This document shows, one piece after another, positions 4,527-63,769 of a DNA stretch of 64,000 bases. The position numbers and the translations under genes are program-made. The notes under the pieces are model-generated. The model was not told the origin of the DNA, made no database searches, and saw only the letters and a program-made list of their open reading frames with translations. The first letter of the stretch is position 1. Each line of letters opens with the position of its first letter. Source of the DNA: Apostichopus japonicus (lineage: Eukaryota > Echinodermata > Holothuroidea > Aspidochirotida > Stichopodidae); NCBI RefSeq assembly GCF_037975245.1, contig NC_092569.1, positions 16,724,001 to 16,788,000 of the forward strand. Reading direction: 5' to 3'.

Positions 4527-5191
4527 CAGGCGCGTATCCAGGATTTTCAAACCCGGGGGGCGCGAATTACTATCTAAGCGGAGCGCCACCATCGGTTGGC
4601 GCGCAGCGTACAAGAAAATTTCTTGTTTTGAAACCCCCCCTGATCACCGGAAACGGCACTTCTCGGCTTGAAATGACCAACCAGATGTACACTTTTTGCC
4701 TGAGAACCAGGTATTTCCTAATAGTTTTTTTTTTCCATCCATTACCTTTTTGAAGTTTGTCAACCCGGCACACATCATGTTCGACCTGATGGCATCTCCT
4801 GTGGGTCTTTGCTTTTGTAGGTGATTCTACGTCGCGGCCCACAATACCCGTCAGCCCCACTTTTCAAGGTTTTAAGCCCCATATTTGTTCAGAATTTGAA
4901 AATTCACATTTCTCGTGAATAAACTCACTTGAAAACATACCCATAATGTTGTACAAAATTTCATCTATGGACAACCAATATAGAAAAACTTCCTTGAACC
5001 CCTAACAGACCGGTCAAAATTGCACGAGTAGAGGGAAGTGTGATGCAGAATGTTGGTGAGAAAGTTTCGAAAATTCAGACACAGTTAATTTCTTGGTGTA
5101 CAAACATTAAAACCTCTTATAACGGCTATTATAAAACTTGGTTGAAGGAAATGAAAAAATAGCAGATATTTCCGAAAGCGAACACTACACA

Positions 5192-5872
5192 CATAGGCGT
5201 AGGAGGCGCGGCGGCAGTGGCGGAGCTAGGGGTATTGGTCAGGAGTGGCGAGAATGGTCTGTAGGAGCGCTTTCGACACTATCTAAGCGGAGCGCCACCA
5301 CTGGTTGGCGCGTAGCGTACAGAAAATTTTTGAATAAAGATACTCCCTAGATCGCCGGAAATGACCCTTTCCGGGCCTGGCTAATTTGCAGATAAACGAA
5401 GAATAAGGTGTCATCGCCAAATGACACCAAGAAAATGTGACAAATGTCAATAAGTAGATGAGAGCGCAATAAAAGAGTTAATAATCTAGAATAAGTAAAA
5501 AGTGGTAAAGAGCTGAAAAAGGCGCCAGCAGTCTATTTGAGTCCGTCAGCGGGGGGGGGGGCATCCACCCCCCGACCGTATGGACGCTCCGCCACTGCGC
5601 GGCGGGGGTGCAGCCCCTAATTCTCCATTACTAATGTAAAAGAGAGTTTTGACCTAATTGGACCTCCATGCTTTTTATACATCTACATGAGACATGTCGT
5701 TGTTTACATTAGCATCCCGCGAAATACTGCGCAATTTGAACGGACCGTACGGTACATGATGGCATGCGATGTAATAACCGATGCTTGCTTATATGATATT
5801 GACATGGAGACATTGAACGCGCGCTCCGCGCGCGAAAATTTTTGGTTATTTTTTCAGGCAAGTCGGACAGTT
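5192..5872. mobile_element. second-level insertion (CATAGGCGTAGGAG family)
   Basis: Comparison with the sister composite near 22240-22272 shows that the host sequence is interrupted here, between ACACTACACACA and TCGGACAGTTTTGAGG. The inserted DNA starts CATAGGCGTAGGAG. Its interior (about 5762-5872) matches the inverse of 39090-39180, including a run of alternating GCGCGC around 5817-5836. It is therefore a relative of the complete element at 39034-39448. Its right terminus looks truncated and no clear target duplication was found. Confidence 0.55.
5215..5597. mobile_element. nested hAT-like non-autonomous element with 8-bp TSD
   Basis: Starts CAGTGGCGGAGC and ends GCTCCGCCACTG, perfect 12-bp inverted termini. 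It is flanked by CGCGGCGG at 5207-5214 and again at 5598-5605, a perfect 8-bp target-site duplication. At 383 bp with no coding capacity it is a MITE. The 8-bp duplication and CAGTGGCG-type ends are as expected for hAT elements. It carries one copy of the 48-bp hairpin module (5278-5325). Confidence 0.85.
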
Positions 5873-6733
5873 TTGAGGCTTTTCATCCTGGAACGCAAAT
5901 TTTCATGCTCACTGATATGATGTGATATCTGCTGTTTGCGTTACAAATTCGAACAGGCGCGTAGCGAGGAATTTGCCAAGGGAGGGGCGAAGCCTGTAGG
6001 CAAATTATCTAAGCGTAGCGCCACAATAGGTTGGCGCGAAGCGTACAAGAAAATTTTGGCCGAAAATGCCTCCCAGATCGCTGGAAATGGCACTACCCAG
6101 GACCATTTGTTAGCGCGAAGCGTACAAGCAAATTTTGGCCGAAAATGTCTCCCAGATCGCTGGAAATGACACTTCCCAGGCCTTGTAAGTTGCCTCTAAG
6201 CACTTTCTATTTTGAAATTACTTAGCGATATCATTTAAAAAAATGCTGAATGGGGGGGGGCGGGCGGTCGCCCCCATCCCAAAATGCGTCATGTTCCCCG
6301 ACGACAAGGTCGAGTTCGAGACCAGCCACAGTTGGTTTCATAGCACAATTCTACACACGCGTTATGATAGACCATATATAGTATATATATAGATCATTAG
6401 TGAGAGAGGAAAATGGAAACGTCAAAAAATGGAGTTGTCGGTGTAAGGGGTAGGGTGAGTCACACTTTTACAAAATCATTGATCCGTCACTGGCTACCCT
6501 TCAGCGCTGTAATGATGTCACTGTTCCTCTTTCTCTCCCCGGTGTCTTCGCGTTTTTCTTTTACTCCCTCCTTTTCTCCTTTTTCTCTCTTTCTTCTTTT
6601 TCTTTTCCCTTCCTTCCTCTCCTCCTCCTCTTTTTTCCCCTCTTTTTTCCTTTTTTCTTCTCTTTTTTTCTCTCCTCTTTTTCTTACCCGGGGGGCGCGC
6701 GCCCCCAACGCCCCCCCCCTGGATACGCACCTG

Positions 6734-10627: not shown

Positions 10628-10688
<61 letters not shown>

Positions 10689-13600
10689 TAATTGTTTTCC
10701 TCTTCGCAAGCCAACGGTCTTTCCGGCCGACGAGTTTGACCCAGCTAAAGACGCGGATGCCTTGAGCGATGCCTTCAAGGGTTTTGGTGAGTTTAAAGAA
10801 AATGACATTAAAGAATATCATGCAAAACATATTAAAATTACACAAGTTTACACATGTTTTATAATACTAATTACAGCTATAAAATTGCCCCCATATGTGG
10901 TATGTTGTATGTTGTCAGGGTATGTTGTATCCTGTATATATATGACAACATCGATAGTACAAGCAGTGTTAGATAACCTTACATGTTGAGGGATGCAATG
11001 ATGTCATTCTTTTCTAGAAGTCATTTCATAAACCTATGAAACATTGATGTGCTTACGAAGAATTTCTCATTACTGCAATATTATTTGCCTCAAGCAAGGG
11101 CGTAGGAACCGGGGGGCTGGGGGGCGCCAGCCCCCCCAGTGAAAAATATGGAGGGGCGGAAGTATCATTCCGCCCCCCCCCCGCTTCGCAAGTCAGAAAA
11201 CTCCTTTTTATTTCCAAATGAGAACAAAATCTCATTTGGAGCACCAAATTGCATCTAAGGCCAGGTGAAAATGCAAAATTATATACAAAATGGAGTGGGG
11301 TGGGTTGAAGTGTGCTATATTGCACCAAATTGCATCTGAGGCCACCTGGAAATGCAAAAAAATTCCAAAGGGGAGGGGGAAACCCCCTCCCCTTAGACCC
11401 CTCCCCCAGGCCGGCCATCAGTCTTCAGCCCCCCCCCCACTCAAAAGTACCTTCCTACGCCACTGGCCTCAAGTATATTATTATTAAAAAGAGAATACAT
11501 TATTCTGTATCCTTTATTTCTCCGGGCCTCCGGACCCCGTGGCTGCCTCCTCCTTCCCCCTCCACTCCTGACCCCCTTCTATTCAGGCATGGTCCAACCG
11601 TGCGCTGTTACACCAGGTGGTCTGTTGAATTCACATTTTCATTTAAGAACATATAAACACTGCATTCCTAACAATCTCGAACTTAGATGACGTAAAGTAC
11701 CATTCTTGAAAATACACTAGGATTAATTAATCTCGAGATTATTAGACACTAACACATTACGTGTCTATCCGTACAAAGGGTTGCAGTTTAATAACATGGG
11801 TATGGACATGGTACATTCTATACTGATTGACTATGGAGTTAGATCTTTTCATTTTACTGTCTGTGTGTTGTTAACTTTGCTTTCACATTATGGATTTATG
11901 ATCGTATACATTTAAAACGTGTGTAATTACTTCGGTATTGGTTTCTTGTTGCAATTACTATTTCTAATGTATCTCATTACTTGATCGGGGGAATTCGACA
12001 GGGAAGGTATAACGGGGAGGCAGCAATAGGGAGGGGGGGGGGGGCTTGGGAGTGGGGGGAATCAGGAAAGCTAAGGCACGTCCAAGACAACCCTTCCTAT
12101 ATTTATGACATCCGGTTATAAAGGACTTACATCCGGTAAATTGTTTTTTTTTATTTGTTTTTTTATTCTCTTTTAGTGTTATTTTGGTTTCTTTGCTTGG
12201 TCTTTAATCTTGATTAGCTTATTTTGTTTCACACGCTGTAATTGATTTTTTAATCATGATTCCCAGGTATCTCTGTTTTTCGTGTTGGAACAAAGGATGA
12301 CGTCATCATATCGATATTTACTGGGAGATCATGTGATCAGAGACGAAAAATTCAGGACATTTACAATGAAACATACCAGAAGGTAAGATATATATAAGTC
12401 AAATGCCACGTGATAATTTGGTAACTTTATGTGGACATTCAAAAATACGTTTTATTATGTTACGCATATGTCTACATTTTTTGAAGTAGTAACACTTTGT
12501 ATAAAAAGTGATAGCAACACTTCGGGTATACATTAAAAGTATGAAGGATATATAATATACAATCAATGATAATTTCCATTATTTGATAAACCATATTGTA
12601 TTTCTATGCACCCTATACACACAGTTACTACGGTAAATCTTACAGTTTTGTACCACAGTAAAATTGCTATAATTCGGTAGCATGTGCTATTAGGATTACA
12701 GTAAGAACTGAGGATATGTGTAATTCCAACAATCCAGTTGTTTGGGATTTGTTGGAATTACAAATATCCTCAGTTCTTACTGTAAACATAATAGCACATG
12801 CTACCGATTTATTAGACTTGTCAGCACGATACAGTATTCACTGTGGAACAAAACGTTAGATTTACAGTAGTTACTGTAATCTATGTGTGAATCGGTTGTT
12901 CTATCATAACACTTATTTTGAGATAATATTCTATTAGTCATCTCTGGTTGATTACTTAAAAGGGACTAGAAAGATAATCCACAGTCTATAAGATCAGCAT
13001 TTAACGAAAAAGAAACAACAACAAATTCTATACGAAGCCATTAAAAGTGACAAAAAATACCCTCAACATAACACCTTTAAAATTAGTAAGATTTATTATT
13101 TTTTGACTTTGAGTTATTAATATAAGATAAACTTATAAAATAATCAATATCATGTAGTTCAATTATTAATTATTAACAGTTATAAATTACTGCAATTACA
13201 ATGATAAATATTATATTAACATAAGAATTAATATGAAACATATATTATCAATAAAAGACAATACATTTGCGTATACAATTAGATCGATTGACGTGTAGCT
13301 TCGATCTGGATGTAAATGAGACTGTCAGTGTTAGAGTTAAGTTTCAGTTTTATTTTCTGACAAATCAAATGTAAAATTAAGTGGAATGTGATCCTTTTAG
13401 TACCGTCACGCAATGTTTGAAGTCGCCTACTCGCATATTAATATAATATCACGCAATTACTGTTATGATTTTGTTATGTATTTAGTGCTTGGTAGACGAG
13501 CTACATTCAGAACTGAGTGGTAACTACTTGCAAATTATGGAAAGTATGCTTGATAAGCCTGATCAACTCCGAGCGAAGAGAATAAAAAAACTCATCCACA

Positions 13601-16600
13601 CAAAGGTAAAACGATTAAGTCATTTCACTTCTTTCTTTCCCTTCTACGTGTAAGGTAGCATACGCCCATTAAATACCCCATTGACTTTCACACTAAATTA
13701 CAAAAGTAATGTGGTCTTGTAAGTCTAGATAAAGGTTCTCACTAGCTAAATGCTACCATTGACTTACACACTGAATCACAAAAGTGATGTGGTCTCTAAG
13801 TCTAGATAGAAGTTCTTACTAGCTAAATGCTATACCCATCACCGGATAGCTGACAAGTTGGCCTTTCATGGCACTATCAACTTTCCGTACCATGACTATG
13901 TAGATTTTTTGCTATCCGAGCCGGAAGTTTTCGTCACTTGTAAACAAACCTCTTCACTCTTCGTACGCTGCTCCTGGGAGGCCTTAAGGGGTCTAAAATT
14001 GCCACAATTGACCCAATTGTTTCACAACAATTACTTCCATTCATGCTCTTCAACATGCAATCCACAAAAACTAGATCATGATTGATAACAGTTCAAATGT
14101 CCTTCTGCTGCATTTTGGCACTTTTCCTAAAGGAGAACAATTGAGCGGATGGATATAGACTCTTATAGGAGTATGCCACCATTAAATACGTTCATAGACC
14201 GTGTCATGCATGGTACTAAAACGGTAAATAAACATGGTCCAAAACAAAACAAATCCAAACAACACCGTGACGGTACAGACAGCACAGTTGGTGTTTCATG
14301 TTATGTAGGATAATGTGTGTCAACTGTGGCACTGATGCTAAAAGCGGTCAATTTCCCCTTTCTATTATTACAGTATATAGTTGGTAACAAAGAAATCAGC
14401 ATACACTTAAGCCTATAAACTTGAACACCAAAATATATGTTTTAGTTTCATGTAGTCATGTAGACGTTACCTAAAGTTACCTACAATTGCCTGAAGAAAA
14501 TTTATTTTTAACTCCCCCCCCCCCCCTCTCTCTCTCTCTCCAAAAAGTATCGAAAAGTTAAAGAAATGTTATAACTAAAATAAATATATATTTTACAGGT
14601 TAATTTGCCTGGAAGCCTCAGTACGGATGTAGCAGTCTTGGAAATTATTTACCCTCTTACCCCAGCGGTATGTATACTTTGGCTGGATTATGCATGTGCT
14701 CGACGATTCCGTGTGTACCTTAGTGTATAACCCACAGTAAACGTTACCTGCAGTATTTGGATTTCACATTTTCGTGAAAAGAGGGGAAGTTCACTTTTAA
14801 ATGGATGAAAGATGAATATATTTTTAGGATCCCTGGCGAACTGATGCATCGAGATGTCTAAAAATCTGCTGTGTTGTCATAGATGAACATTTGGTTCCTA
14901 TATTTGGGTAAAACTCGAAATTATAAACATTTTGACTTGTTACTCATGTTACCATTTCCAGCCTTTTAGGTGGATTCCCTGAAACTTTTATCAATTGGAT
15001 TAACTTTAAAATTTATCTTTTGAATTTCTTTACTCACAGATTTATCATTTTAAGGTTTAATAAAGAAAAAAAACATTATTTTCTCTTCTAGAGATATAGT
15101 TCATACAGAATCTCTGAATAAAAGTAATTTGATCGTATTATAGTCATATTTCATCATGACATCATTGCGACAAAAAATATATATATTATATTTCTTGTCG
15201 CAATGATGTCCTTGTGACAATATAACATAAATGAAATTTAAACGAATACATGGAGTTTCAGTCCATGTAGATTTAAGTAAACTGATACATAGAGGAAGAA
15301 AGTGTAAAGTCATTCTCTTCCAGAACAACCAATATAATCACAAACCAATAAAATATATTTCCAAATTCTACTAAATATTGAAATATTCCGCCTTCTGAAT
15401 TATTTTCAATAGATTATCTAATTGTATGTCATTTCATCTTTTGTGTTATAAAATTTGAAATTTTCACGACGCATTCTACAGCCTGTGTTGTTGTCTTGTT
15501 TGGAAAGAACCTATACTTATATTAGTTATGATACATGTCCGAATCTCTTCTGTACACAGGAAATAAACACGTTGGTAATTGCCTATGCAGACGGTAAGTT
15601 TTTTTTATATAATTCCAATATTTTTATAATTTGATTTAGTTTAAAAAATGTACAATTTCAATGTTTCACTTGTTACAAAGAAAAATTGAGTATATATATA
15701 AAAAAATAAAATGAACAAAATTGTTAGTGATTTCTAAAACAAAGCCAGTTTTCGATATGCTAAACCAGGAGTGGATTACTGAAACCAATATGAATGATAT
15801 ATGTTTGATACTTTGAAATGTAATTTAAACTATCAAATTTGATATATTTTGATACCGATACGGATACACTTTTTTGTCAATTATGATATATTTGAAGAAG
15901 AAACAAACACCTGATGATGTTTTATATTTACGTTGAAAAGTTTCTCATATTAACTATTGATTTTTTTTCGTTTTTCTCTGATTTTGTTCTCAAGCATTTC
16001 AGGTAAACCTGATTGAAGATATTGATGAGAAAGTTGACGGTGATTTTAAGGATACGCTGAAGCACATTCTCCAGGTATCTATACTCTGTAAATTACATAG
16101 AAACAATTAATGCAACATAAATAAATATATATATATATATACTCTGTAAATTACCTTCAACCATTTTAGACTAATGCAACATATGTATACTATCTTAATT
16201 ACACAGAAACAATTTAGACTAATTCAGCATCTATATATTCTCTAAATTACATAGAAAGAATTTAGGACCAATTAAGACTAATGCAACATATGTATACTAT
16301 CATTCTGGCATTAAGTTACGTTTGATGTTGAGCGTCATCTCGCCGTTTGGCCCTATAAAGAATACTGTTATCGAAGAATTAGATTTTCCCCAATGCTTCA
16401 TGAATAACTTGACTCCTAACTATATGTAGGGACCATTCTCGTCCTCATAACTGTTTCCTTGAAAGTTTGAAGATAATTTATGACAAAGTCTGCAGTAAAA
16501 TGACATTTCACGTCACAAACATAAACACTGCAACTGTTTTAATATTTCCATATATGAAGACATGGGCTTGGTATTAGTATTTATGCTTCATCAAATTTAA

Positions 16601-19600: not shown

Positions 19601-22600
19601 TAACGGCACCGCGAAACTTCTTTTAGATCGGTAAGTACATTGACAAATAGGGCTCATGGACGAGACTGGGTACTGGGGAGGGGGACTGGTGCGTATAAAT
19701 GGCTATTGAATGAGTGATGGTGCCGGCGGGGGCGATGAGGTTCTTTAACCAGCATTGCATATAATGTCTTTGAAGAAATTAGAACATTTCTTGACAAGCG
19801 AACATGTTTCCTGAGATTTCTCAGTGAACCAAGAGGGAATCGACGTCTTCGGCATGCCTCAACTTTTCAACTTTGACGGCCGTTTCAACGCATTGAACCT
19901 AGCGGCGTACTGATAAAGTGGTAGGCCAATCCGCCTCTAATAATGAACTGACTGAGTCGATGTATGTTTTCCATACATGTTAGCATAATTATTTTAGCAT
20001 CATCATTTTAGCATAATCATTTTAGCTAACATACGCTAAAACATTTGCTAAAACTTAGGAACAAATTTCAGCATAATCATTTTAGCATTTTAGCATCATC
20101 ATTTTAGCATAAACATTTTAGCAAACATACGCTAAAACATTTTCTAAAAATAAGGAACACATTTAAGCAAAATCATTTTAGCAAACATACGCGAAAACAT
20201 TTGCTAAAAATAAGGAACACATTTTTGAGATCAGTGCAAAGTTTGTTGTTCTCCTCGTCAGTTAAAAGTCGAAATTATTTAATTTTAATGATGTAAACAA
20301 GAAAAACAAATCTGGTTAGAAAAAAATGGTTTGAACGTTGGTCGAAAGAAAGGCCTCACAGGAGATACATTACTTCAACTTAAATAGAATCATGAAGATT
20401 TCATTGTCGTGTAGTTTGTTTATTTTTCATGAATTAGTTTTTTATATTTATACTGTACATTTATCTGCCTTTCTGGCTTTTGCAGAAAACCTTACTCGAG
20501 GTAGCGAAAACCGAAACGAATGAAAAATACAGAGATGGTTTCGTTGTTATGGGTAAGGTAGCATCCTTCTATTGATTGTTTTATCTTTTGTCTTCTTAAT
20601 ACAATTCAAAATGCTTGACTTGATGTGGTTGAATGTTGCATCTTTTATCCTAACGGTGAAAACTCACCTATATGTCTGCTTTAAATAATGAATTTACCTA
20701 TTTCTTTTGTATTCTTCTTTTTCGGTTTTGCAACTCTTAGTAAATGCGGCTGATGGGTCTCGTCGCTATGTGGCAGATCTCCTTTATCAATCAATGAAAG
20801 GACTAGGTACCCAGGACGACAGATTAATATATTTGATCTTAGCTCATTGCGAGGTATTTTCTGCTTGCACTTCACATCTTTAACTTCTTCTTTCAAATTA
20901 TCCATTATTAAAATTTATTGAATTCTCTTTAACAGTTTCATCGATGAAAGGTGTTGTTTCGTTCCGTTTCGATTCGAATAGTTTCGTTTCGTTCCTTCCG
21001 TTTCGATTCGAATAGTTTCGTTTCGTTTCGATTCGAATAGTTTCGTTTCGTTCCTTCTGTTTCGATTCGAATAGTTTCGTTTCGTTCCGTTTCGATTCGA
21101 TTTGAATAATTTCGTTTGGATTCGTTCGTTTTAGTTTGATTTGACGGTAGCTGGGTACGCAATGGCGATGACAATGATGTCATCAGTAAAGAGAAAATGG
21201 TTGCGTTATTAACAATTAAGTTTCTTCCAAAGAAATACTAAAAGTCATGTCCTTGTCTGTTCTTTTCATAACATTTCGAATGAATAATGTTTAAAATTAC
21301 ATATGGTATATACTGGTTTATCTATTATTTGGTAAATTTGTTATTTAGCAGTCTTATATATTTTATGAGGATATTCTCTAAACAAATTAAATCATTATGA
21401 TAACGGAACAAAATAATACCTTCCAAACTATCATCAAATATATAGTGTCATACAGTGGCGGAGATTTCTTGTCAGAAGTGTGGGGGGGGGGGGGGGGTTG
21501 CAGGCCATTGATGAAATAAAAAGTAATAAGTGCTGGCTCACTATCTAAGTGGAGCGCCACCATAAGTTGGCGCAAAGTGCACAAGAATTTTTTGGCAAGT
21601 ATTGCCTCCCAGATTGCAGTAAATGGCACTGCCCAGGCCTTGAAAAGCTGCATTTAACCAGGGGCGTTTGCAGGATTTTCTAACCCGGGGGGCGCGTATT
21701 ACTATCTAAGCGGAGCGCCACCATTGGTTGGCGCGCAGCGTACAAGCAAATTTCTGGTTTTGGTACCCCCAGATCACCGGAAATGGCACTTCTCGGGTGT
21801 TGAAACTGAACAACCATATGTACACTTTTGCCTGAGAACAAAGTTTTTTTCCAAATACTTTTTTTCTCATCTATAACCTTTTTGAAGATTGTCACCAGTC
21901 ACACATCATGTTCGACTTCATCACATATCCTGTGGATCATTGCTTTTGTAGGTGATTCTTCATCGCGGCTCACAATATCCGTCAGCCCCACTGTTCAGAA
22001 TTTGAAAATTCACAATTTTCTTGAATAAATTCACTTCAAAACATACCCATAATGTTGCACAAAGTATCATCTATGGACAACCGATATAGAAAAACCTCCT
22101 TCAAACCCTAACAGACGGGTCAAAATTGCACGAGTATGAAGAAGTATGATGAAGAATGTTGGTTAGGGAATTTTCGAAAATTCAGACGGCTACTAAAAAA
22201 TTTCGTTGAAGGAAATAAAAATATACCAGATATTTCCGAAACCGAACACTACACATATCGACAGTTTTGAGCATGGGCGCAGATCAGTCTTGGATAATGG
22301 TGGGGACGCGTGTCTGTTCTATGACACTATCTAAGCGGAGCGCGACCGTGGGTTCGCGCGTAGCGTACGAGTTTTTTGGGCAAATATACCTCCCAGATCG
22401 CCGGAAATAACACTTCCCAGACCTAATGATGCTCCTAAACCTCCTTAAGTTTTAGATCTCATGGCTTAGAAATTTAGTTTGGAGAAATACATGGGCGTCT
22501 GCAGAAAGAAAATCAGGGGACAAATAATCCAAGTAGACTTTTGTATATACGATGGGTCTGGGGTGCTCTCCCAGAAAACAAATATAGACTGCCGCAAATG

Positions 22601-23831
22601 CGATTTCCGTCCTATATTTAACAACTGTGGATAAAATACAATAAAATGAGAACTGCTGCATGTCATTTGTACAATGCTGGATCAAACTGCGTTCAATACA
22701 GGGGAACTTGAAATGCAGCTATTGGTCAAGACAAATTGGTGGGGACACGGTATATCATGTCCCCACTACTGAAAAAGTTGGTAGGGACGCGTCCCCCTGT
22801 CCTCACCAGGATCTGCGCCCATGGTTTGGAGGCTGTTTATCGTGGAACGCCATTTTCATGCTCACTGATATGATGTGATATCTGCTGTTTGCTTTACAAA
22901 TTCGAGTAATTTGTCACTGTTCCTCTTTCTCTTCCCGTTTTCTTGCCGTATTTTCTACTCCATCCTTTTCTCCTTTTCTCTCTTTCTTCTTTTTCTTTTC
23001 CTTCCTTCACCTCGTTGAAGTTGGCAAGTGTATACAGTTCCAAAGCTATTCAACAGCAACAAAACGTTATTTTGTGTATGTCTCTTGTGGGGTGAAGTTA
23101 GCACTATGAGCTACAAGTTCCAATGCGCAAGGTGGGGGAAAGGGGCTAGAAATAATGTGTGGGTCATTTCTAACTCGATTTCCGGTCGTTAATTGTTGAT
23201 GTAGCCTACCAGGTAAAAGGTTGAAATGACTTTAACAATTTCAAATTTAATAATTTGATTTATTATGCCATTTGGAGCACATAACATAGGCTATAACAGA
23301 ACATTACTGGCAAAAACTAGGGGGGTTGATTGTATGGGCCAACCCCCCTCTTCAAAAAGTGGGGGGGGGGTTAAAAAAAACCAACCCCCCTGTTTCTCCG
23401 CCCATGGTGTCATAACTTACCAAAGTATGTTACTTTGTGAAAAGGTATGTTATTTATGTTTCACTATTATTTTGTAAATTTTGCTAAATAGGTAAAATGA
23501 CAAAAATTAAAGTTCCTGTTATATTGCATAGGGCAACGATTGAGGAAGCCAATCGTTAATTTGCAATGAAATACGAAAATAGTTGTAAAAACAATAATGG
23601 CTGTCTTCTTTATTTCACCATTAGAAAGACCTCGGGAACATCGAAGAGGAGTTTCTGAACAAGTATGAAGATTCCCTTCAGAACTTTATTCGAGGAGATA
23701 CCAGTGGTGATTTCCAGAAAGCTCTCTTAGCACTCTGTGGGCAGGAAACCGTCCCACCAATTGAGAAACGAGGATCTGTCGATTCGGCTTCGCCGCAGGG
23801 GGAGGAAAACATCCCAGTGGAACAGCAGTAA
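8478..23831 (+). CDS. annexin A (complete, 12 exons, 358 aa)
   Basis: Calcium- and phospholipid-binding annexin. Exons: 8478-8498, 10711-10786, 12267-12382, 13486-13605, 14599-14667, 15560-15593, 15995-16074, 18545-18610, 19488-19595, 20486-20552, 20741-20853, 23625-23831. All introns are GT-AG and the frame stays open across every join. A short N-terminus (MAQTENK) precedes four annexin repeats. Repeat 1 has KGFG (residues 30-33) and Thr41 followed 39 residues later by Glu80 in SELSG. Repeat 2 lacks the glycine loop. Repeat 3 is replaced by a divergent exon with a WSP motif (residues 200-202). Repeat 4 is canonical, with MKGLGT (Thr276) and Asp315 in RGDTSGD, again 39 apart. So one full type II calcium site is expected. 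The C-terminal tail is a 24-residue polar extension. Exon phases are identical to annexins B, C and D. Odd features: a 21-nt enlarged exon 3 and a duplication that creates the stop. The start is the only ATG giving a phase-0 first exon with a good donor. Confidence 0.93.
9999..10346. repeat. inverted and direct copies of a ~22-bp motif (MITE-like)
   Basis: GTACGGAGAGCCAAACGTTC occurs in direct orientation near 9999 and 10127 and inverted at about 10325-10346. The inner inverted pair brackets about 220 bp whose interior is also partly palindromic (ATCAACATGT with an ACAATT block on both sides). This is the form of a small palindromic MITE with an extra terminal copy to its left. It lies in annexin A intron 1. 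Confidence 0.75.
10631..10684. repeat. (TA)n microsatellite
   Basis: Pure TA dinucleotide run ending 26 bp before annexin A exon 2, so it sits where the branch point and pyrimidine tract are expected. Confidence 0.95.
11095..11465. mobile_element. hAT-like non-autonomous element with 8-bp TSD
   Basis: Ends are CAAGGGCGTAGGAA and, inverted, CAGTGGCGTAGGAA (two mismatches). GCCTCAAG flanks both sides (11087-11094 and 11466-11473), a perfect 8-bp target duplication. The interior is G/C-run rich at both ends and has an internal direct repeat around GCACCAAATTGCATCT. No coding capacity. It lies in annexin A intron 2. Confidence 0.87.
12267..12382 (+). CDS. annexin A exon 3, enlarged by 21 nt
   Basis: The exon is 116 nt, against 95 nt for the equivalent exon in annexins B and C. 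The extra 21 nt (12267-12287) are pyrimidine-rich and encode ISVFRVG, inserted between KGFG and TKDD inside the repeat-1 calcium loop. Directly before the expected exon start (GAACAAAG at 12288) the sequence is TG where an AG acceptor would be needed, and the nearest upstream AG is at 12265-12266. Confidence 0.85.
12615..12890. mobile_element. palindromic MITE, copy 1 (ACAGTTACTAC family)
   Basis: A near-complete palindrome. The left arm runs through ACAGTTACTAC, a TACCACAGTAAA block, GGTAGCATGTGCTATTAGG and ACTGAGGATA; the right arm repeats these blocks inverted. Other copies are at 26503-27012, 48767-48999 and 59406-59630. No coding capacity. It lies in annexin A intron 3. Confidence 0.8.
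13680..13836. repeat. two-copy tandem repeat (~78 bp)
   Basis: Two adjacent similar copies, each with AAAAGT(A/G)ATGTGGTCT and ACTAGCTAAATGCTA blocks. It lies in annexin A intron 4, about 75 bp after the donor. Confidence 0.75.
14512..14540. repeat. C-run followed by (CT)n
   Basis: A simple-sequence tract about 60 bp upstream of annexin A exon 5. Confidence 0.9.
15158..15210. repeat. perfect 16-bp hairpin with AT-rich loop
   Basis: GACATCATTGCGACAA at 15158-15173 is matched exactly, inverted, at 15195-15210, with a 21-nt loop of A/T repeats. It lies in annexin A intron 5. Confidence 0.85.
16525..17870. repeat. tandem repeat of ~250-273 bp, about five copies
   Basis: The block ACACTGCAACTGTTGT or a close variant starts at 16525, 16792, 17060, 17333 and 17583, giving unit lengths of 267, 268, 273 and 250 bp. 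Each unit contains GACATGGGCTTAGTATTAG, a TCTACGGAACAAATAC block and a TATACCGGCATTT block. The array fills most of annexin A intron 7. Open frames of up to 112 codons in it (16625-17742) are repeat translations with internal stops between units, not exons. Confidence 0.9.
19975..20230. repeat. degenerate TTTTAGCA-based tandem repeat
   Basis: Repeated ATCATTTTAGCA and ACATACGCTAAAACATTTGC blocks, with a higher-order unit of about 65-90 bp ending in AAGGAACACATTT. It lies in annexin A intron 9. Confidence 0.8.
20940..21135. repeat. TTTCG-rich tandem repeat
   Basis: Repeats of GTTTCGATTCGAATAGTTTC with interspersed TTTCG pentamers, strongly strand-asymmetric (T/C/G on the plus strand). It lies in annexin A intron 11, just after exon 11. 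Confidence 0.9.
21453..21658. mobile_element. truncated CAGTGGCGGAG element
   Basis: Starts CAGTGGCGGAGATTTCTTG, followed by a long G-run, and contains one hairpin module (21540-21587). No matching right terminus was found. It runs directly into the next element at 21659. Confidence 0.6.
21659..23010. mobile_element. second copy of the composite CAGG-family element (right end missing)
   Basis: Collinear with 4527-6733. It shares the left-end block (GCAGGATTTTC, then CCCGGGGGGCGCG), two hairpin modules (21701-21747, 22325-22372), TTCGACTTCATCACATATCC, CCGAAACCGAACACTACACA, TGATATGATGTGATATCTGC and the terminal pyrimidine tract near 22920-23010. The right terminus itself is absent. It is interrupted by the insertion at 22272-22823. 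It lies in annexin A intron 11. Confidence 0.7.
22272..22823. mobile_element. hAT-like insertion with near-perfect 8-bp TSD
   Basis: Ends CATGGGCGCAGATC and GATCTGCGCCCATG are perfect inverted repeats of 14 bp. Flanks are GTTTTGAG (22264-22271) and GTTTGGAG (22824-22831), an 8-bp duplication with one later change. At 552 bp it has no visible coding capacity and carries one hairpin module near its left end. Confidence 0.83.
23625..23831 (+). CDS. annexin A terminal exon with stop inside a 24-bp duplication
   Basis: Encodes the last helices of repeat 4 and the polar tail. The unit AACATCCCAGTGGAACAGCA is present twice in tandem (24-bp period). The first copy runs into TAA (23829-23831); the second runs into AAA and stays open in the same frame for 14 codons up to TAA at 23874-23876. 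Confidence 0.9.
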   Translation, partial: KDLGNIEEEFLNKYEDSLQNFIRGDTSGDFQKALLALCGQETVPPIEKRGSVDSASPQGEENIPVEQQ

Positions 23832-25007: not shown

Positions 25008-25175
25008 GGTTTCGAACCTCTGGACTTACAATCAGCGTCCATAGCCTTGTTGGTTAGGGTGTCCGCATACAAAGCGGGAGGCTGGGGTTCGAATCCCGGT
25101 GGAGGCTGGAAGTTTTTTTCACTGTTCTTGATTTTCCAACTCATTACGGTTTTCATTTATATATATATATTTAGG
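25008..25175 (+). mobile_element. tRNA-derived SINE, most complete copy
   Basis: Carries a tRNA-like segment: a D-arm-like AGCCTTGTTGGTTAGGGT, a stem CCGC/GCGG enclosing a 7-nt loop, then the B box GGTTCGAATCC at 25086-25096 and the shared SINE body, ending in a short (TA)n. On the opposite strand, 25008-25018 reads GGTTCGAAACC, a second B-box-like block head to head with the first. Confidence 0.7.
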
Positions 25176-26150: not shown

Positions 26151-26502
26151 GCATCAGTAATGAAAACGTGCCCTAGATATAATGTATTGTGTAATTCAAG
26201 GGGCATGTAAAAGCAGCAACGATATAAATACATATTCTTAATCTTCTAATGACAACAAAAGTCCACCACTTTATGGTCCAACACAAACAATGTGTTTCTT
26301 TATTTCCTTCTCTGAATATGCATTTCCAATAATCGCAATAAATATTTATTTGTTAATTTGAAACAAGATACATTATGTATATTTACCACTATATATCACT
26401 CGCTATAAGATACGATTTCAAACACAACGTTCAGTTCTAATTGCAGAAAATTAAATTAAACAACTTGTTTAAAACCATTTTCCCGTCTTCGAATTCACCC
26501 GT

Positions 26503-27012
26503 TACACACAGAGAACACAGTTACTACTGCAAATCTTACAGTTTTGTACCGCAGTAAGAACTGGATCGTGCTATAAATCGGTAGCATGTGCTATTAGGAT
26601 TACGGTAAGAACTGAGGAAATGTGTAATTCCAACAAATCCAGTTGTTGGGGTTTATTGGGATAACACATATCCATAAGTTCTTACTGTAAACCTAATAGG
26701 ACATGCTACCGATTTATCACATTTTCAGCACGATCCAGTATTTACTGTGGTACAAAACTTTAAGATTCACAGTAGTTACTGGACTGTGCTGACAAATATG
26801 ATTAATCGGTAGCATGTGCTATTAGATTTACAGTAAGAACTGAGGATGTGTGAAATCCCAAGAAATCCCAACAACTGGATTTGTTGGAATAACAAGTATC
26901 CTCAGTTCTCACTGTAATCCTAATAGCACATGCTACTGATTTTTAGCACAATCCAGTTTTTACTGTGGTACAAAACTTTAATATTTACAGTAGTAACTTT
27001 GTTCTCTGTGTC
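26503..27012. mobile_element. palindromic MITE, copy 2, double unit
   Basis: Starts ACACACAGAGAACACAGTTA and ends in the inverse (AGTAACTTTGTTCTCTGTGT). Two palindromic units of the family lie side by side, joined near 26770-26790, giving about 510 bp instead of about 250 bp. Confidence 0.85.
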
Positions 27013-49529: not shown

Positions 49530-49584
<55 letters not shown>

Positions 49585-55378: not shown

Positions 55379-56366
55379 AGTTTTCTTGATATTGATGGAG
55401 TTCAAAAAATAACTTGTTCGTGGACCTGTTGATTATGGGGATAGTCAAAGCAGACCACTCAACACATACTAACGTTGATCTTCTAAACAGGTTAATTCTG
55501 GCCCTTTGGACTCTAAATCCCCTTCGCAAATTACGAACGGTGTTTGGGGTTTTACTATTAATTATCTGTTACAGCTTATTTTAGCTATTTGTTTGCATGA
55601 AGCTAAGTCGTACACGGCTAAGTAAATATTGACGTAACTTGAGATTCAAATCAGATTCTGTTTAAACTAGTTTATTCATTCAATTATATTGGTAATCTTG
55701 TTAGAGATGTAACCAGTGTTAGTATAACGCAGAATGCACCCCTGATGGTCAACTTTGAGAAAATAATATATTGTGAATATCGCTTTCCTTTGTCATTGTT
55801 TACTTTTATCATAACAACAGTTTATATCAAGCTCCATGTTATGATAGGTTATTTATTCATATATTTTTCAGTACTGTATTAGCATAGTACCGACGAATTG
55901 TGACACGAGATTTTCAACGATGGCCAGTCCCAGTTACAAATTTCCATAATTGATAAATTCCAGGTTTTCTGGGACAAATGCCTTGTCTATCAGAAAAAAA
56001 ATCTAAGAAACAATAACTGGACCAGCTTTTTAACCCCCATCTAGGATATAGACTCGCCGGATGTTCTAGGTGTAAACCAAGTTTCACTATACGATCTAGC
56101 TAGACACTGTGTATTTCTCTTTGACTCTATACACACGGTAAACAATGTTACAAAGTGTCACAATTTAAGACTTCAGCAAATATTACAACATCAATCCAAC
56201 AGTTTTGTTATATTTGAGTTGATTAAATCACTATGTATGTGCGTATGACAACAAGTATATCCGTACATATAATATTTTAATTATTGCCAAAACTTATTAT
56301 ATTTTTAGGCCTGGCACATACTCATTCATAGCATGCGCTAACAAGTTTAAGTAACATTTATTCTTT

Positions 56367-57284
56367 AGCACGTGAGGATTGCATGGTGTTGTTGACATAC
56401 CCAGTTTAGCACGTGAAGGATTGAATGGTGCTGTTGACATACCCAGTTTAGCACGTAATGGATTGCATTGTGTTGTTGACATACCCAGTTTAGCACGTGA
56501 AGGATTGAATGGTTTTGTTGACATACCCAGTTTAGCACGTAATGGATTGTATGGTGTTGTTGACGTACCCAGTTTAGCACGTGAAGGATTGAATGGTGTT
56601 GTTGACGTACCCAGTTTAGCACGTGAAGGATTGAATGGTTTTGTTGACGTACCCAGTTTAGCACGTAATGGATTGCATTGTGTTGTTGACATACCCAGTT
56701 TAGCACGTGAAGGATTGAATGGTGTTGTTGACATACCCAGTTTAGCACGTGAAGGATTGAATGGTTTTGTTGACGTACCCAGTTTAGCACGTTAATGTTT
56801 GAATGATGTTGTTGACATACTCAGTTTAGCACGTGATGGATTGAATGGTTTTGTTGACGTACCCAGTTTAGCACGTTAATGATTGAATGATGTTGTTGAC
56901 ATACCCAGTTTAGCACGTGATGGATTGAATGGTGTTGTTGACATACCCAGTTTAGCACGTGAAGGATTGAATGGTTTTGTTGACATACCCAGTTTAGCAC
57001 GTGAAGGATTGAATGGTGTTGTTGACATACCCAGTTTAGCACGTGAAGGATTGAATGGTGTTGTTGACATACCCAGTTTAGCACGTGAAGGATTGAATGG
57101 TGTTGTTGACATACCCAGTTTAGCACGTGAAGGATTGAATGGTGTTGTTGACGTACCCAGTTTAGCACGTGAAGGATTGAATGGTGTTGTTGACGTACCC
57201 AGTTTAGCACGTGAAGGATTGAATGGTGTTGTTGACATACCCAGTTTAGCACGTAATGGATTGCATTGTGTTGTTGACATACCC
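56367..57284. repeat. 42-bp minisatellite, about 22 copies
   Basis: Unit GTTGACATACCCAGTTTAGC followed by ACGTGAAGGATTGAATGGTG and TT, total 42 bp. Variant forms have ACGTAATGGATTGCATTGTG or ACGTTAATGATTGAATGATG. Because 42 is a multiple of three and the unit lacks stops in several frames, long open frames appear on both strands; these are artefacts of periodicity. About 16 of the units contain CACGTG. Confidence 0.97.
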
Positions 57285-58926
57285 ATTTGCAGGCTATTCA
57301 AGGGGACCATGTATGCTCGGGAAAGCTAAATATTGATAGGCTAGGCTTCACTGCCAACAACGTATGGAGGCTATTATTAGTATATTTCTTATGTCCCAGC
57401 AAGGGGACCTCTAGAGGTATCGAATCAAGCAAGTAGGATTCGAGAGATACAATTAGTTTTTGATCACTTTCAAATACTATTTCGCAACAACCGGTTCTAA
57501 GAAGTGGCTGCATTGATTCTTCGTACGTATCCAACTACTTTAAATTCAACTTCGTAACGGTGTTAACAGTGTTAACAATGTAACCCTTCAAAAGCATGAC
57601 TCATTTGACCTTGCTTGAACTATTATAAAAAGCAAGCTGCCTTCTTCCTGCAGTAAGAAACACAGGAAAAGTTCAGTGTTTCAAAGACAACTTCCACTCC
57701 ATGTCAAGGACGACTCGAAATAGATTACATTGTTAATGTTATAAATACAACAGCCGTCGATTTGATGATCAATGTGAAATATTGGTTGCTTTGTGTCCAA
57801 TTGTATTAATTTAAACATGTAAAAGCAAACCAAAATATTTTATCAGCTCCACACTGGAGTAATCAGTAAAATCGAAAATTGTAAATAAAGACAAATGTTC
57901 TTTCTCACCATTATATTGCTCATGTTTACCAGTAAGAAACAGGTTCCATCACCGAAAGTTACGTGCACATCGATTGTAAAAATGGTTTCTTAATCTTTTA
58001 AGCGTTAAATGTGAAAGTTAGCAAATATTAAAGAAGTCAATGTTGAATAAAGTACCGTACAAATTAATACAGGTGTATCGTATTATAATCATAATACAAA
58101 TATATCCATTATAACATACAAAAGACATTGAAACACCGTTTTTAACAACTATTACAATGCTATAAATTTTATTTTACTGTTTTCCAGTGTTATTTGCTAA
58201 CCTCGAACTTAAATCAAATACAAATTGTACCGCCAAAAATGATTTTCACTTGATTTTATTTAATAATAGAATAAATTTTTCTTTGACAATTTTATATTGT
58301 TCCATTATGATTATAATTGTTATGCTGACAATTTCTAGTTATTAACGTAAAGTTAGCGTTGGTTTTTTTTCACTAATTATATCTTTATCTCCATAACATC
58401 TTTAATTTTATAATATTTTGTAATTTCAATTTGTCGAAAATAAAACAACTAATTGAAATGAATAACAACATTAGGTGATAAAACCAGAAAATATTAAAGC
58501 TTATAATATTTACAGTGAGCATATCTTTAACATTCAATATTAAAAATAAAGGTGCAAAAATTAACTAGAAAAATTGTGCATTTCAGTAAATAATTGGAAA
58601 GACGTCTCTAAAACCACCGACACACAACGGGAATAATACTTTATCTAGCATTATAAAGTAGTCATATTTCATTTGAAAGGGTTATATTTAATTGGAATGT
58701 CTTAACATGTGGAAGAACTGAAAAGTTATAAATTGGTATTCGTCATAAGATTGTTTTGTTTGTACCATATTTTAATATTGAAGGCCACTCTCTGGTAATA
58801 TTTTGTTGTCTTAATTGTTGCTGTTCTGTTTAAGAGGTAAATGTACAACATTAGCATAACTGTATTCGATGGTTAGAAATAAATACATTTTGGATTTAAT
58901 ATTACAATGATTCTTTCATGGCTGAC

Positions 58927-58932
58927 TTTATT
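58927..58932 (-). terminator. candidate polyadenylation signal for annexin D
   Basis: AATAAA on the minus strand, about 155 nt after the annexin D stop codon. Confidence 0.35.
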
Positions 58933-59087
58933 TCGAGAAAAAAAAAACTGGCCGTTGTAATCTAAATTTAACATTAACTCCCATATCTTAGTTTTGTTAT
59001 CTTTCTTTGTGTGCATAAAATATATTGATGGTAATGTGCGGTAAGGAAGAACTTCTATATACTTGATAAAGTACTCGACATATGAAA

Positions 59088-62000
59088 TTAATTTGTTGCC
59101 GCTACCTCTGGCCCGACAAGAGCAATCAATAAGTTTCCGTAATCGCCAGATGTGTCGTCACGGATAAAGCTCTGCAGGGAACAATTAAACGTCTGCTGGA
59201 AGGTGTCAGCGATGTTTCCCAAATCAGACTGTTTAATTGAAGAAAATGAATCGAAAGTTGATTTGTAGTTGATATCTAATCGAAAGCTATACCCGTAGAT
59301 GTAAACCAAACCCATCAATTTAATTTAATTTAAGTACAACAAGTATAAAAAAAAATTAAGAATAGTGTACGATATATGGCCCCTTTATAGAAATACCGCC
59401 CGATATACAGAGAGAACACAGTCACTACTTTACATCTTAGACATTTTGAACCACAGTAAAGACCGGATCGTGCTATTTATCGGTAGCATGTGCTAGTATA
59501 ATTACTAGATGTTTCAAATTTATCAGTACGATCCAGCTTATTACTGTGTTACAAAACTTTAAAATTTTACAGAAGTTACTGTATCGGTTGGCATTACGGT
59601 AAAAAAAAATGTAGAATTCACTGTGTTCGCTTAAGGTAATTGTGTGCATTACGTAACATAAAATAAAAACTACATTATGAGAATGGCTTGCATCATTGTC
59701 ACATATGGAAAGAGATTATTCGTAGAAAATCCAATTGACAAGGCTAGGATTTCAGACATTACATACCTCACATCTAAAGACAATGATATAAATCAGCTTG
59801 CTGTCGTTTGTTCCGATCCCTTTCATTGATTGGTAAAGTTGCTTTGCAAAATACATCCAGTGATCCTGTGCTGCTTCAACTGCAGTATGAAATAAACGGA
59901 AACGTATATTTTTAACAGGAACACTATTATAAAATCTCTTTTGATCAGTCAGTTCAAGGAGAACTATCAAGCTAGTCAGGAGTTTCGGATCAAGCAGATC
60001 ATTCTGTTCATCTCGGTCCAGTTGGTGATGGTTGTCAGATAGGACACGAACGAGATAGGCCATGTCAACTGATTTAATCAGGTCGCACACCTCGACCACT
60101 TCGGTTATTCCGGTAGATCACATTGGTCCTGTCAATCAGCTCGTGCAGGTGGACAATGTCGTACAGTTGAGCGGTCAAGTCGGACCGGCATGACTGATGG
60201 ATCCGGTTCGACGTGTCAATCAGATCAACTAGATCAAACAAGTTGGCTTTGTGTGGTTCGCAGTGGCGTAGCTACGGGGGGGGGGGGGGCCTGGGGGGCC
60301 GAGGCCCCCCCATGAAAACGGCTGGCCCCCCCCCCCCCCCACTGGCCCCCCACTGGGAATGGGGTAAAAAAAAATGTAAAAAAAAAATAAGTGCGATTCA
60401 CTAATATTTTTTGTTCAATAATTTGGGAAATAGAGTTACACAATTTTCTCGTCTGTATATCTGGTAGAATAAGAATAATACAATATCTGTAGTAATCATG
60501 AGAATGGTCACACAGCATGGCATGGCAATGGTCGATGCGACCATACACCACGAACCTTGTTGTGCTGCGCGATATCGATATCTGCTGAATATGTTCAGTG
60601 CTTCCACCTAGCGCAACAATCTATCAAAAGATTGGCACCGTTTGTACTGAGCCGAGGTATCAGGTATTCATATATTGCCTCGAGTCAAATGAATATATGC
60701 AGGTGCGGATCCAGGGGGTCCAGGGGGTCCGGACCCCCCCCCTGCTCTTGGCCAAAAAAAAAAGAGGAAAAAAAGAGAAAAAAAAAGAGAGAGAAAAAAT
60801 AATTAAATTAAACGCCAATTTTAAACATGTAGGACGTCAGAAAAGCGGTTATCCTCACAAGTCAGCCAGGTGTGTCTTTTCCGTCAAATGAACTATAGTG
60901 TGCACGCGTGCTACACGTGCCAAAAATATCTTACAATCTCAATTTTCAGACAGAAAAGTTTCAAAATTGAGGTGGTGTTCAAATTTTTTTGGGCGGTGAT
61001 GTTACAGAGCGGTAGGCTGCTAGGATGCGCTAACGAATTTTTCATGAGCAAACCCCTCACCCTTCCAGAATCCTGGATCCGGCCCTGCATCAAACAGTGG
61101 TGACGGAACGGGAGGGGACTTGGGGCTAAAGGCATTATGATTTTTGTATCATCTCAACTCATCTGATATGTAATACCATATTTCATAGATTGTTTTTTTT
61201 TCTCATCAATTGAGAAATTGCAGACATGAGATCCATTTTTTCAGGCTAGGTACATGCAGCTTAGAATACTCGGGAAGTGCCGTTCCCGGCCATCTGGGGG
61301 GTTTGTAAAGCCAAAAATTTTCTTGTACGCTCCGCGCCAACCGATGATGGCGCTCCGCTTAGATAGTCTTACGTTCAGGCGCGGCTGGACCAGTCAGATC
61401 CCCCCTGTCACAAACCCTGCATCCGCCTCTGATATGTCATTGAATATTCCACAAAACTACTTATTTTATGCCCACGAAACTGTCGAAACATGATTTTCCA
61501 CTACTGGTAGAGATATAAAATATTGGTAATTCTGAAATTCCTGCAAATATGCGGCTATGCCTGTTCACTACTCACTACTGTATCGCCTTAAAAAATGATG
61601 AGTGGAAATTATTTCTCCAGGACCATATCGTATCGTGGGTATTGAGTGCGTCTGATGTACGAACGTACGTAGTACGTCTATGATGATATGCACTGTACTG
61701 TACTGATAAAAACAGGTGAATTTCACTCCATGGGAGTGATCACTGAGCACATTCCGGTATAAGAGTGAATTTCCACTCCATTGGAGTAAATCTTGACTCC
61801 TAATAGAGTTATATTCACTCATATTAGGAGTGAAGGATAACTCCAATAGAGTTAAATTTCACTCTTAATTTGAAGTGCGCCGAGTGATCACCCCAATGGA
61901 ATGAAATCCACTCATTTGTTTTTAGAGTGTTGCTAGATATATGAAGAAGAAATTTACATACCAATACATGTTATCGGTCATCGATTGGCACAAAAACCCA

Positions 62001-63769
62001 GATTCTGATGACAGCTACCTCAAAAAACCCAATAAATGGCCTAATTAGCACCGAGCCACCAATGTGGACCATTACCAAAACATCGATGCGTGTTAGTCTT
62101 CCATCCCCTTCCTCTAATGCTATTTAAGTCCACATGTGGGCATATCCTACAAACCTACCGGTAGCCCACAGGGGTTTGAGTTAGGAGAAAGGCCTTGACA
62201 CCTTGAAACGACAAATGATGCCAACTTCCCTCAAGTTAAAAGTCTGGCTGAGTTGGCAAGGCCAGTCAGCATGAAAGAGAATTTTTTTTTTTGCATTTCT
62301 GTCACCAAAGTTGCACATCTTTTTGGTTGCTATTTTGCCTCACAGGTGCCATCTCCTGCGATCTGGGGGTGCTGAAATCTCAAATTTTCTCTGTACGCTC
62401 CGCGCCAACCAAGGTGGCGCTCCGCTTAGATAGTAACCTCCGGCCCCCCCACAAGAAAGAACAGCCCCCCCATGGCCCCCCCACTCAAAAAATCCTAGCT
62501 ACGCCACTGGTGGTTCGGTCAGTCCGTTCGATCAGTCGTATCGATTAGGTCAACCAGACCGTCGAGTTATGTCACTTTATTTCATTCTTTCCATGATGTA
62601 CCCGGTACGTCTTGTCTTCAGTTCGTTTTTCAATATGTATGTAATCTTACCCAAGACTTTGAATCCTTCCCGATAGATTTCCTTCGGTTGGGTTTTCACG
62701 ACCTCTAGCAAGTCCGTGTTGGTCGTCTACATTGATTCAAATATGAGAAAATGTGCTACTAAATAGTATTTCACAGCGTTTAATTAATGAAACATCAATG
62801 TTGATAGCGCACAAAGAATTATGTCTTACAGCACCTTGGCACCATTTAAGTGTGAAATAATAAGACTTTCTTTGCGCGTGAAATATTTATCATAACGAAT
62901 TAATCATCTCTGATATGTCATGAAAGTCATAATCCATTCTACACATAAATTTCATTTTACATTTTTCCTAAGATTTCATTTTTTCATTAACTATATCTGA
63001 TATGACGACTTCAAAATCGGTTATTTGAAATTTAGACGTTTGAAATTTGGAATAAATCCATCTACAATAAATTTCATAATTGATATACCGTCTTATAGGA
63101 GTTGATCACGGCAAAGAGAGCCATTGGGTTATTCTTGAGAAGAAAATCCATCAAAGTGGTATTTTCAGGTGTCCAATCTTCTGCTTTCAACTGAAGGAAA
63201 TGGAAAAGGAAAGAATTTAAGACTAGGCAAAAAGGTTTTTGGTGATACCTGTTTTTAATCGTGTGTAACTCCGTTGCTTGATATACATTTAAAACGCAAA
63301 GGACATTGTAGCCTATTTAGGCCTATACGGATATGTCCAAAACAATCAAAGCATGTCCAACATAATCAAAGCATGTCCAACATAATCAAAGCATGTCCAA
63401 CATAATCAAAGCATGTCCAAAATAATCAAAGCATGTCCAAAATAATCAAAGCATGTCCAAAATAATCAAAGCATGTCCAAAATAATCAAAGCATGTCCAA
63501 AATAATCAAAGCATGTCCAAAATAATCAAAGCATGTCCAAAATAATCAAAGCATGTCCAACATAATAAAAGCATGTCCAACATAATAAAAGCATGTCCAA
63601 CATAATAAAACCATGTCCAACATAATAAAACCATGTCCAACATAATAAAACCATGTCAAAAATATTTAAAGCATGTCTAAATTAATGTTAAACGTGTACG
63701 TACCGAAACCAAAAAGTTGGTGTCGCTTTCAACTTTCTGAGAAGTCAGCGATTGGTTTACGTCGTTGCC
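59088..63769 (-). CDS. annexin D (partial, last five exons; 5' end beyond the window)
   Basis: Exons in transcript order: 63769-63704, 63190-63089, 62726-62651, 59879-59767, 59228-59088, matching exons 8-12 of the other annexins in phase and nearly in length (66, 102, 76, 113, 141 nt). The visible part starts in the linker before repeat 3. Repeat 3 is degenerate (LKAEDWTP in place of a GxGTD loop), as in A and B. Repeat 4 is canonical, with MKGIGT and RDDTSGDY, an acid 39 residues after the Thr. The C-terminal tail is short and ends VAATN. A 2.25 kb element is inserted in the intron between 62651 and 59879. The remaining exons should lie above 64000. Confidence 0.9.
59406..59630. mobile_element. 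palindromic MITE, copy 4 (degenerate)
   Basis: ACAGAGAGAACACAGTCACT on the left, then GGATCGTGCTA and CGGTAGCATGTGCTA, and inverted blocks ACGATCCAGCTTATTACTGT on the right. The middle is deleted. Annexin D last intron. Confidence 0.7.
59880..60260. other. intronic segment with an in-frame extension and GATCAGTC-like degenerate repeat
   Basis: Reading the minus strand, the frame of annexin D exon 11 stays open upstream of its acceptor for about 78 codons, to a TGA at 60118-60120. The DNA here and across the hAT insertion (62510-62575) is rich in TCAATCAG, GATCAGTC and GGTCAA words, a degenerate simple-repeat character, so the frame is probably not coding. Confidence 0.4.
60700..61087. mobile_element. 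nested CAGG-family element
   Basis: Ends CAGGTGCGGATCCAGG and CCTGGATCCGGCCCTG (inverted: CAGGGCCGGATCCAGG), related to the termini of the 4527-6733 composite. No target duplication could be found. Confidence 0.6.
61704..61927. repeat. palindromic block with CACTCCAATGGAGT-type words
   Basis: Outer arms resemble each other inverted (AAAAACAGGTGAATTTCACT against AAAAACAAATGAGTGGATTT). The interior repeats TTTCACTCCAT, TTGGAGTAA and CTAATAGAGTT words in both orientations. Confidence 0.6.
63331..63685. repeat. 20-bp tandem repeat, about 17 copies
   Basis: Unit ATGTCCAACATAATCAAAGC with exact 20-bp phase. Variants form blocks: CATAATCAAAGC first, then AATAATCAAAGC, then CATAATAAAA(G/C)C. It ends about 20 bp from the donor of annexin D exon 8. 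Confidence 0.97.

Follow-up and report, generated by a model that had tools for sequence, protein, structure and literature searches.

The Hermes transposase offers the closest described parallel to the locus analysed here. In the published description of the Hermes ends, its BED domains bind the STR1/STR2 quasi-palindrome of the left end and there is none at the right end, and left ends shortened to 223 bp keep full activity while those of 140 bp or less show activity that is sharply reduced or lost (PMC10368747). Short transposase-binding motifs beside the TIR, often different at the two ends, are described for Herves and, as cited in that article, for Ac, Tol2 and Tag1 (PMC3143072). A group of hAT elements with 5-bp duplications is named hAT5 (PMC12730594). 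In the coral CMITE families, a 75-bp internal region is more conserved between families than are the TIRs, tandem arrays occur, and a role in transposition has been proposed for that region (PMC2872659). Literature searches with block or tip strings gave no transposon title among the matches listed; searches by topic gave, among the matches listed, the coral CMITE paper and no comparable hAT case.

Here we describe a block of ~97 bp shared by many elements in a 64,000-nucleotide stretch of the genome of the sea cucumber Apostichopus japonicus (hereafter, the window) and in loci elsewhere in that genome. Like the bound region described for Hermes, the block is one-sided, subterminal and quasi-palindromic, and it lies in elements with 8-bp duplications; the reported Hermes left-end requirement also extends far beyond the TIR, similar to the subterminal placement of the block. 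Unlike Hermes, where 4-bp repeats in one element are described, the predicted site here is a ~97-bp block found with some 15 head types (PMC10368747). It is far longer than the 4–8 bp motifs reported for Hermes and Herves, and whereas the Herves-type motifs, as presented, are short and element-specific, one long block is here common to many families (PMC3143072). As in the CMITE families, an internal region is conserved across families and tandem arrays occur; in contrast, CMITEs are described as piggyBac-type (TTAA) elements of about 100 bp whose interior the block fills, while the elements studied here are hAT-type, 0.3–2.2 kb long, and carry a subterminal one-sided block (PMC2872659). One family, A, resembles hAT5 as there defined in its 5-bp duplications alone, no transposase having been found for A (PMC12730594). 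The block is unusual in being so long, in occurring across many families and in being present in two duplication-length classes.

Results

Extent and edges of the conserved block

The initial annotation had listed eight copies of a ~48-bp hairpin module in the window. All eight are present, with block starts at most 1 bp from the limits given there. A window search with a 20-mer, allowing up to three mismatches, returned eight matches with 0–2 mismatches, six on the + strand (4571, 5280, 6006, 21542, 21703 and 22328) and two on the - strand (61346–61365 and 62413–62432); none was expected, and none was found in 100 shuffles. A profile search of the window returned eight full block copies and one half copy (Table 1). 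The size of 48 bp was not borne out: judging from BLAST, the profile and identity bins, the unit runs from ACTATCTAAG to about CACTTCCCAGG, that is, ~97 bp made up of a 48-bp core and a 49-bp tail. In BLAST comparisons among three window regions, matches between elements mostly begin at ACTATCTAAG and end ~97 bp on, some sooner.

Mean pairwise identity over seven window elements (A21, the second A copy, being of the same family as A4 and omitted) was 0.85 in the core (bases 0–48), 0.63 in the tail (bases 48–97) and 0.17–0.28 in seven flanking bins, compared with 0.24–0.28 for random window sequence. Conservation thus drops sharply at the edges to flanks at random level, and the proposal of a conserved part common to elements with differing surroundings stands. 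Nor are the hosts copies of a single family with uniform conservation, since the edges are sharp and 16 head clusters were separated (see below). Among 12 representatives, eight of them picked by the core pattern, the three thirds of the core gave 0.97 (ACTATCTAAGCGGAGC, the most conserved), 0.80 and 0.81, and four bins beyond 97 bp gave 0.18–0.34. Core identity was 0.871 between families (27 pairs) and 0.978 within A; the corresponding tail values were 0.654 and 0.865. Two old A copies compared outside the block in four segments were 0.859, 0.876, 0.881 and 0.918 identical ungapped (0.728–0.881 gapped), so that the core is about as similar between families as these same-family copies are outside the block. 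The inter-family tail identity lies well under the within-family value, which suggests that selection, if any, would act mainly on the core.

Half copies of the block, lacking its first 19 nt, were also recorded, 47 of 264 profile hits starting at profile position 20. Many of these are the tandem unit in A copies; another half copy lies in element M_L046 (locus L046), at element position 453.

Table 1. Block copies and their host elements in the window (positions counted from its first base)
Feature	Position	Strand	Details
Element A, composite with nested B and C	4527..6733	+	2,207 bp; TIR CAGGCGCGTATCCAGG/CAGGTGCGTATCCAGG, 15/16 matching; 5-bp duplication ATGTT
Block of A	4569..4665	+	42 bp inside left end
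Element B	5215..5597	+	383 bp; TIR CAGTGGCGGAGC; 8-bp duplication CGCGGCGG
Block of B	5278..5375	+	63 bp inside left end
Element C, nested in A	5954..6508	+	left end CAGGCGCGTAGCGAGG; right limit approximate
Block of C	6004..6101	+	50 bp inside left end
Tandem half copy, arm 2 and tail only	6102..6183	+	from profile search
Element D with nested A copy	21453..23406	+	1,954 bp; ends CAGTGGCGGAGA/CATGGGCGGAGA; 8-bp duplication GTGTCATA
Block of D	21540..21637	+	87 bp inside left end
Older A copy inside D	21659..23008	+	interrupted by E; right end not found
Block of second A copy	21701..21797	+	
Element E	22272..22823	+	552 bp; TIR CATGGGCGCAGATC, 14/14; duplication GTTTTGAG/GTTTGGAG (7/8)
Block of E	22326..22418	+	symmetric change in both arms
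Element G with nested F	60261..62509	-	2,249 bp; TIR CAGTGGCGTAGCTA, 14/14; 8-bp duplication CGAACCAC
Block of F	61271..61367	-	64 bp inside left end CAGAGGCGGATGCAGG at 61431
Block of G	62337..62434	-	75 bp inside left end

Host elements and their setting in the window

Element B sits in A and has been amplified together with it. No clean duplication was found for element C, and a homologous site without C is present at 22905. Element F is nested in G, and a further F and G pair lies ~1.07 kb apart at L106/L107. Nests of block-bearing elements recur (A(B,C), D(A(E)), G(F) and M(B), M here being M_L055); some have been amplified as a single unit, and block spacings of ~709, ~335 and ~1225 bp recur. 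Two block-free elements with similar tips and 8-bp duplications occupy 11095–11465 and 39034–39448, the former with a G/C hairpin at its left end, the latter with none. Inside G, positions 61716–61911 form an imperfect palindrome of ~197 bp that is 75% identical to its own reverse complement and contains GGAGT/ACTCC units.

The window has the look of eukaryotic DNA, with a GC content of 0.32–0.43 per 4-kb bin and long TA microsatellites. Its largest ATG/GTG/TTG frame is 189 aa, and no Pfam family was found for four window ORFs or for a fragment thought to be annexin-like. Tandem arrays lie at 16525–17850, 46723–48011, 56364–57285 and 63333–63686, with periods of 268, 129, 42 and 20 bp, respectively, and copies of one dispersed repeat family, direct and inverted, lie around ACTGTGGTAC-like motifs at 12600–12876, 26496–27021 and 48760–48981. 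A tRNA-like gene at 25034–25108 scores 41.1 bits with Rfam and is called tRNA-Cys, anticodon aca, by ARAGORN.

Heads, tips and family relationships

Single-linkage grouping of the heads of 58 copies (30 loci on C1, 20 hand-picked short stretches and the 8 window copies) produced 16 clusters, a number that varies with the score threshold. The 50 non-window loci all lie within the first 9.9 Mb of a single contig. Because the core pattern was used to find them, part of their core conservation is built in by that choice, which does not apply to the conservation of the tail or to the patterns of edges and heads. In 15 of the 16 clusters the element starts with a hAT-type tip resembling CANNGGCG, degenerate in some; L057 has no hAT-like head. 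The termini had been called different, and the tips do vary between families, but they share this degenerate hAT-type sequence: left tips (bases 0–12) are 0.63 identical against 0.26–0.27 for random sequence in 12 representatives, among which the left end of family O is placed one base too far in. The right 12-bp tips are 0.67 identical between families (10 families; random, 0.26–0.27). Bases 12–40 from the tip are 0.45 identical against 0.26 for random sequence, in part owing to a G-run of 4–16 bases (12 representatives).

Short elements carrying the block measure 347–892 bp. When 30 longer loci were searched for end pairs, a duplication-flanked pair was found in 12 and none in 18 (raw counts with no shuffled control); L038 and L049 among the 12 represent a B copy within A and are not independent, and part of the 18 failures arose because A-type ends fall outside the 1.5 kb examined. 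The ends of L042 and L045 were obtained under other limits. In pairwise BLAST of 17 elements, the inter-family matches listed over the block start 0–28 bp before it and end at most ~155 bp past its start. The longest involve the subgroup of L056, K, M and the F nested in G, plus a few others; the L056 head type used in the 12-representative and 17-element comparisons differs from window element F. Other inter-family matches are due to nested copies or are located at the right ends.

Position, orientation and asymmetry of the ends

The block lies 41–90 bp from the left end, in a single orientation. The 264 profile hits (loci plus window) yielded 121 distinct full copies with flanks, of which 102 have the strict tip motif 30–100 bp upstream and none has it in the mirrored zone downstream. 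Most of the 19 copies without the strict motif have tips that are degenerate by eye, and about six have no recognisable tip. With no mirrored placement, the suggestion that the block could be a mobile module of its own is not supported, and an independent one was rejected on the grounds of orientation and position.

The left end reads tip, G-run, block; the right end reads tip, followed 16–28 bp in by an inverted repeat. A search of the last 200 bp at the right end in 10 families gave no significant block match (best E 0.34). Together with the empty mirrored zone, this gives the elements an end asymmetry like that of Hermes. The right-end stems of these 10 families are 6–10 bp long; in seven of them at most 5 of 200 shuffles reach the observed stem, while in B, E and O it is not beyond chance (28–41 of 200), and the right end of O has an A/T stem only and no G/C stem. 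At the left ends, none of the 10 families reaches the level of those seven (best, 23 of 200 shuffles). The right-end G/C hairpins of A, B, D, E, G, H, K, M and N have a family-specific centre, for example GGGGGGGACATGTCCCCCCC.

Relationship to hAT elements

Nine families are flanked by 8-bp duplications, perfect (8/8) in B, D, G, H, K, M and N and 7/8 in E and O. The TIRs are short with CA..TG tips, as in hAT elements, and the duplications, of 8 or 5 bp, vary in sequence rather than being the TTAA of elements with piggyBac tips such as CMITEs. By ends and duplications, therefore, the block-bearing elements look like hAT elements.

Sequences matching the hAT C-terminal dimerisation domain (PF05699) are numerous genome-wide (150 scored of 633 candidates), and none of the best 10 of these loci has a block within 1.5 kb. 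Locus L042, with head O, does contain this domain, on the opposite strand (42.5 bits; cut-off 21.4), in an element of 1,297–1,298 bp that looks internally deleted and whose duplication, ATCCGAG/ATCCGTG, can be taken as an 8-bp duplication with a single mismatch once the end is shifted by one base. When the O head plus block was used as a query, 12 of the best 40 of 584 candidates had an O-type domain on the opposite strand 493–1,477 bp away, 10 of the 12 distances being 758–837 bp; the chance expectation is ~0.0002 per locus (for 40 places with 2 kb on each side in 671 Mb). Conversely, 12 of 21 O-type domain loci of at least 66% identity (after manual merging of fragments) are accompanied by such a block and nine are not. 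In tblastn with the O fragment, only L042 matched among L001–L090 and the window. No intact O transposase was found, the open frames of the close hits (at least 66%) being no longer than 149 aa with introns left out of account, and no intact autonomous block-bearing element was found.

In family O the block lies beyond the transposase C-terminus. The bound end of Hermes is the left one, upstream of the gene, and the block is thus unlike it in being on the C-terminal side. The short elements appear to lack a transposase; as they would keep only the cis parts that are needed, a promoter or coding role for the block is unlikely.

Genome-wide copies and recent mobility of family A

The exact core pattern occurs 8,923 times in the genome (4,460 and 4,463 by strand), compared with 0 for the reversed control; exact-pattern scans of viral contigs gave 0 matches. 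A query with the A block yielded 856 first-look candidates, of which the 40 scored were 99–100% identical. Twenty other A copies drawn from these candidates are 2,132–2,251 bp long and all carry three blocks, at ~43, ~753 and ~1473; an exact 5-bp duplication flanks 17 of them and none was found for the remaining three. These 20 best-match copies have a mean pairwise identity of 97.7%, and family A has therefore been mobile recently. They were chosen as best matches to block 1, whose zero divergence is thus a selection effect.

Folding of the core

The stem that the initial annotation drew from GCGCCA...TGGCGC is possible, but it is weak: the DNA folding z-scores of eight 47–49-mers range from -2.8 to +0.3, and arm changes are mostly one-sided. 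In 35 distinct copies chosen without use of the core pattern, the arms seldom vary and the changes are one-sided, with one symmetric double change, in the block of E at 22326 (GCGCGA/TCGCGC); a second E-family copy (L004) has the same altered letters and an interrupted first arm. A protein site with two-fold symmetry would explain such a pattern no less well than a folded strand would. Rfam gave no match over any window block at the gathering threshold, and at E ≤ 5 the segment 21400–22450 gave four weak hits, none over a block. The RNA hairpin or small-RNA interpretation is thus not supported, given the weak fold, the little covariation and the absence of Rfam matches on window blocks, and for this last reason a small-RNA, ribozyme or tRNA origin was dropped.

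Discussion

The block is probably (we would put it at roughly 0.6) a one-sided cis-acting subterminal recognition site for a hAT transposase, comparable to the Hermes left end. Of the three functions initially proposed, a transposase site fits best, as the block is retained in short elements at a constant position and orientation relative to one terminus; an address at the left end is favoured because the BED domains of Hermes bind a left-end quasi-palindrome and none at the right. We infer binding by a transposase, selection on the block and an order of events as follows. BED-type domains of a multimeric hAT transposase would bind both the tail and the quasi-palindromic core, GCGCCA...TGGCGC flanked by GCGnAGC motifs, over a region roughly 40–185 bp inside the block end. 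Binding would locate the element, the degenerate CANNGGCG tips would then be paired and cut, and the opposite end, without block and usually with a G/C hairpin, would be captured second. Non-autonomous elements would be mobilised only if they retained the site, which would account for a block that stays nearly unchanged from family to family as the heads and bodies around it diverge or are exchanged for others; such exchange might also come about by block-bearing elements inserting into one another.

Shared orientation, position and tip consensus are also what would be expected if all the families went back to one hAT ancestor and the block, with little function, were simply the slowest-decaying stretch in young families. 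The head similarity in bases 12–40 (0.45 against 0.26) would follow from common descent as well, family A is young, and L056, K, M and the F nested in G are similar to ~155 bp past the block start. Neutral divergence of young families would, however, be uniform, yet 16 head clusters and random-level bodies accompany a core at 0.80–0.97, and the data already suggest that among master elements of the same age divergence is low in the block only; we therefore regard descent without function as unlikely. Slightly less likely again is a site for a host protein that, by binding the inverted GCGC half-sites, could time transposition. The arms are palindromic, and the half-sites TTGGCGCG (in E, TTCGCGCG) appear to resemble E2F-type sites, the change in family E retaining an SGCGC-like site; CTATCT within the block presumably resembles a GATA site. 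Against this, the most conserved third (0.97) and the 49-bp tail exceed such sites, and a distance to one terminus that hardly varies points to the transposition machinery.

The presence of the block in both the 5-bp and the 8-bp duplication classes, its abrupt left edge after different heads, and the nested composites listed above would also be expected of a captured module that had spread among unrelated transposon lineages by recombination or nested insertion and now served as a portable end cassette. The mirrored placement was seen in 0 of 121 copies, and the shared tip consensus and G-run are explained by descent, which makes such a capture improbable. Most improbable of all is a function at the RNA level, with the hairpin as a small-RNA source or a ribozyme-like structure: a short stem can form in the core and one family has a symmetric double change, but folding is weak, arm changes are otherwise one-sided and there is no Rfam hit over a window block.

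Recognition by a hAT transposase has itself to accommodate two duplication lengths. Family A has 5-bp duplications and the others 8-bp. A single enzyme would be expected to leave duplications of a single length, so the block must be accepted by two or more enzymes: either it is recognised by two hAT enzymes or it has been transferred from one class to the other. Other observations also weigh against this reading: no intact autonomous element with the block turned up, the block greatly exceeds the Hermes and Herves motifs in length and lies on the C-terminal side of the transposase, tail identity between families falls well below its within-family value, the heads share some similarity, and two elements with such tips have no block. 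It can be proposed, tentatively and as the less likely course of events, that the block is a portable address module for at least two hAT transposase lineages (5-bp and 8-bp cutters), with recognition uncoupled from tip and duplication length and new families arising by swaps of heads and bodies.

If the block is indeed such a recognition site, its thousands of natural copies in many families would establish which sequence beyond the tips is read by a hAT transposase, something so far known from few elements. It would allow a direct test of whether non-autonomous elements have one address label in common, and would bear on why two duplication-length classes carry the block. The block would, in addition, be a sensitive probe for hAT annotation in this genome.
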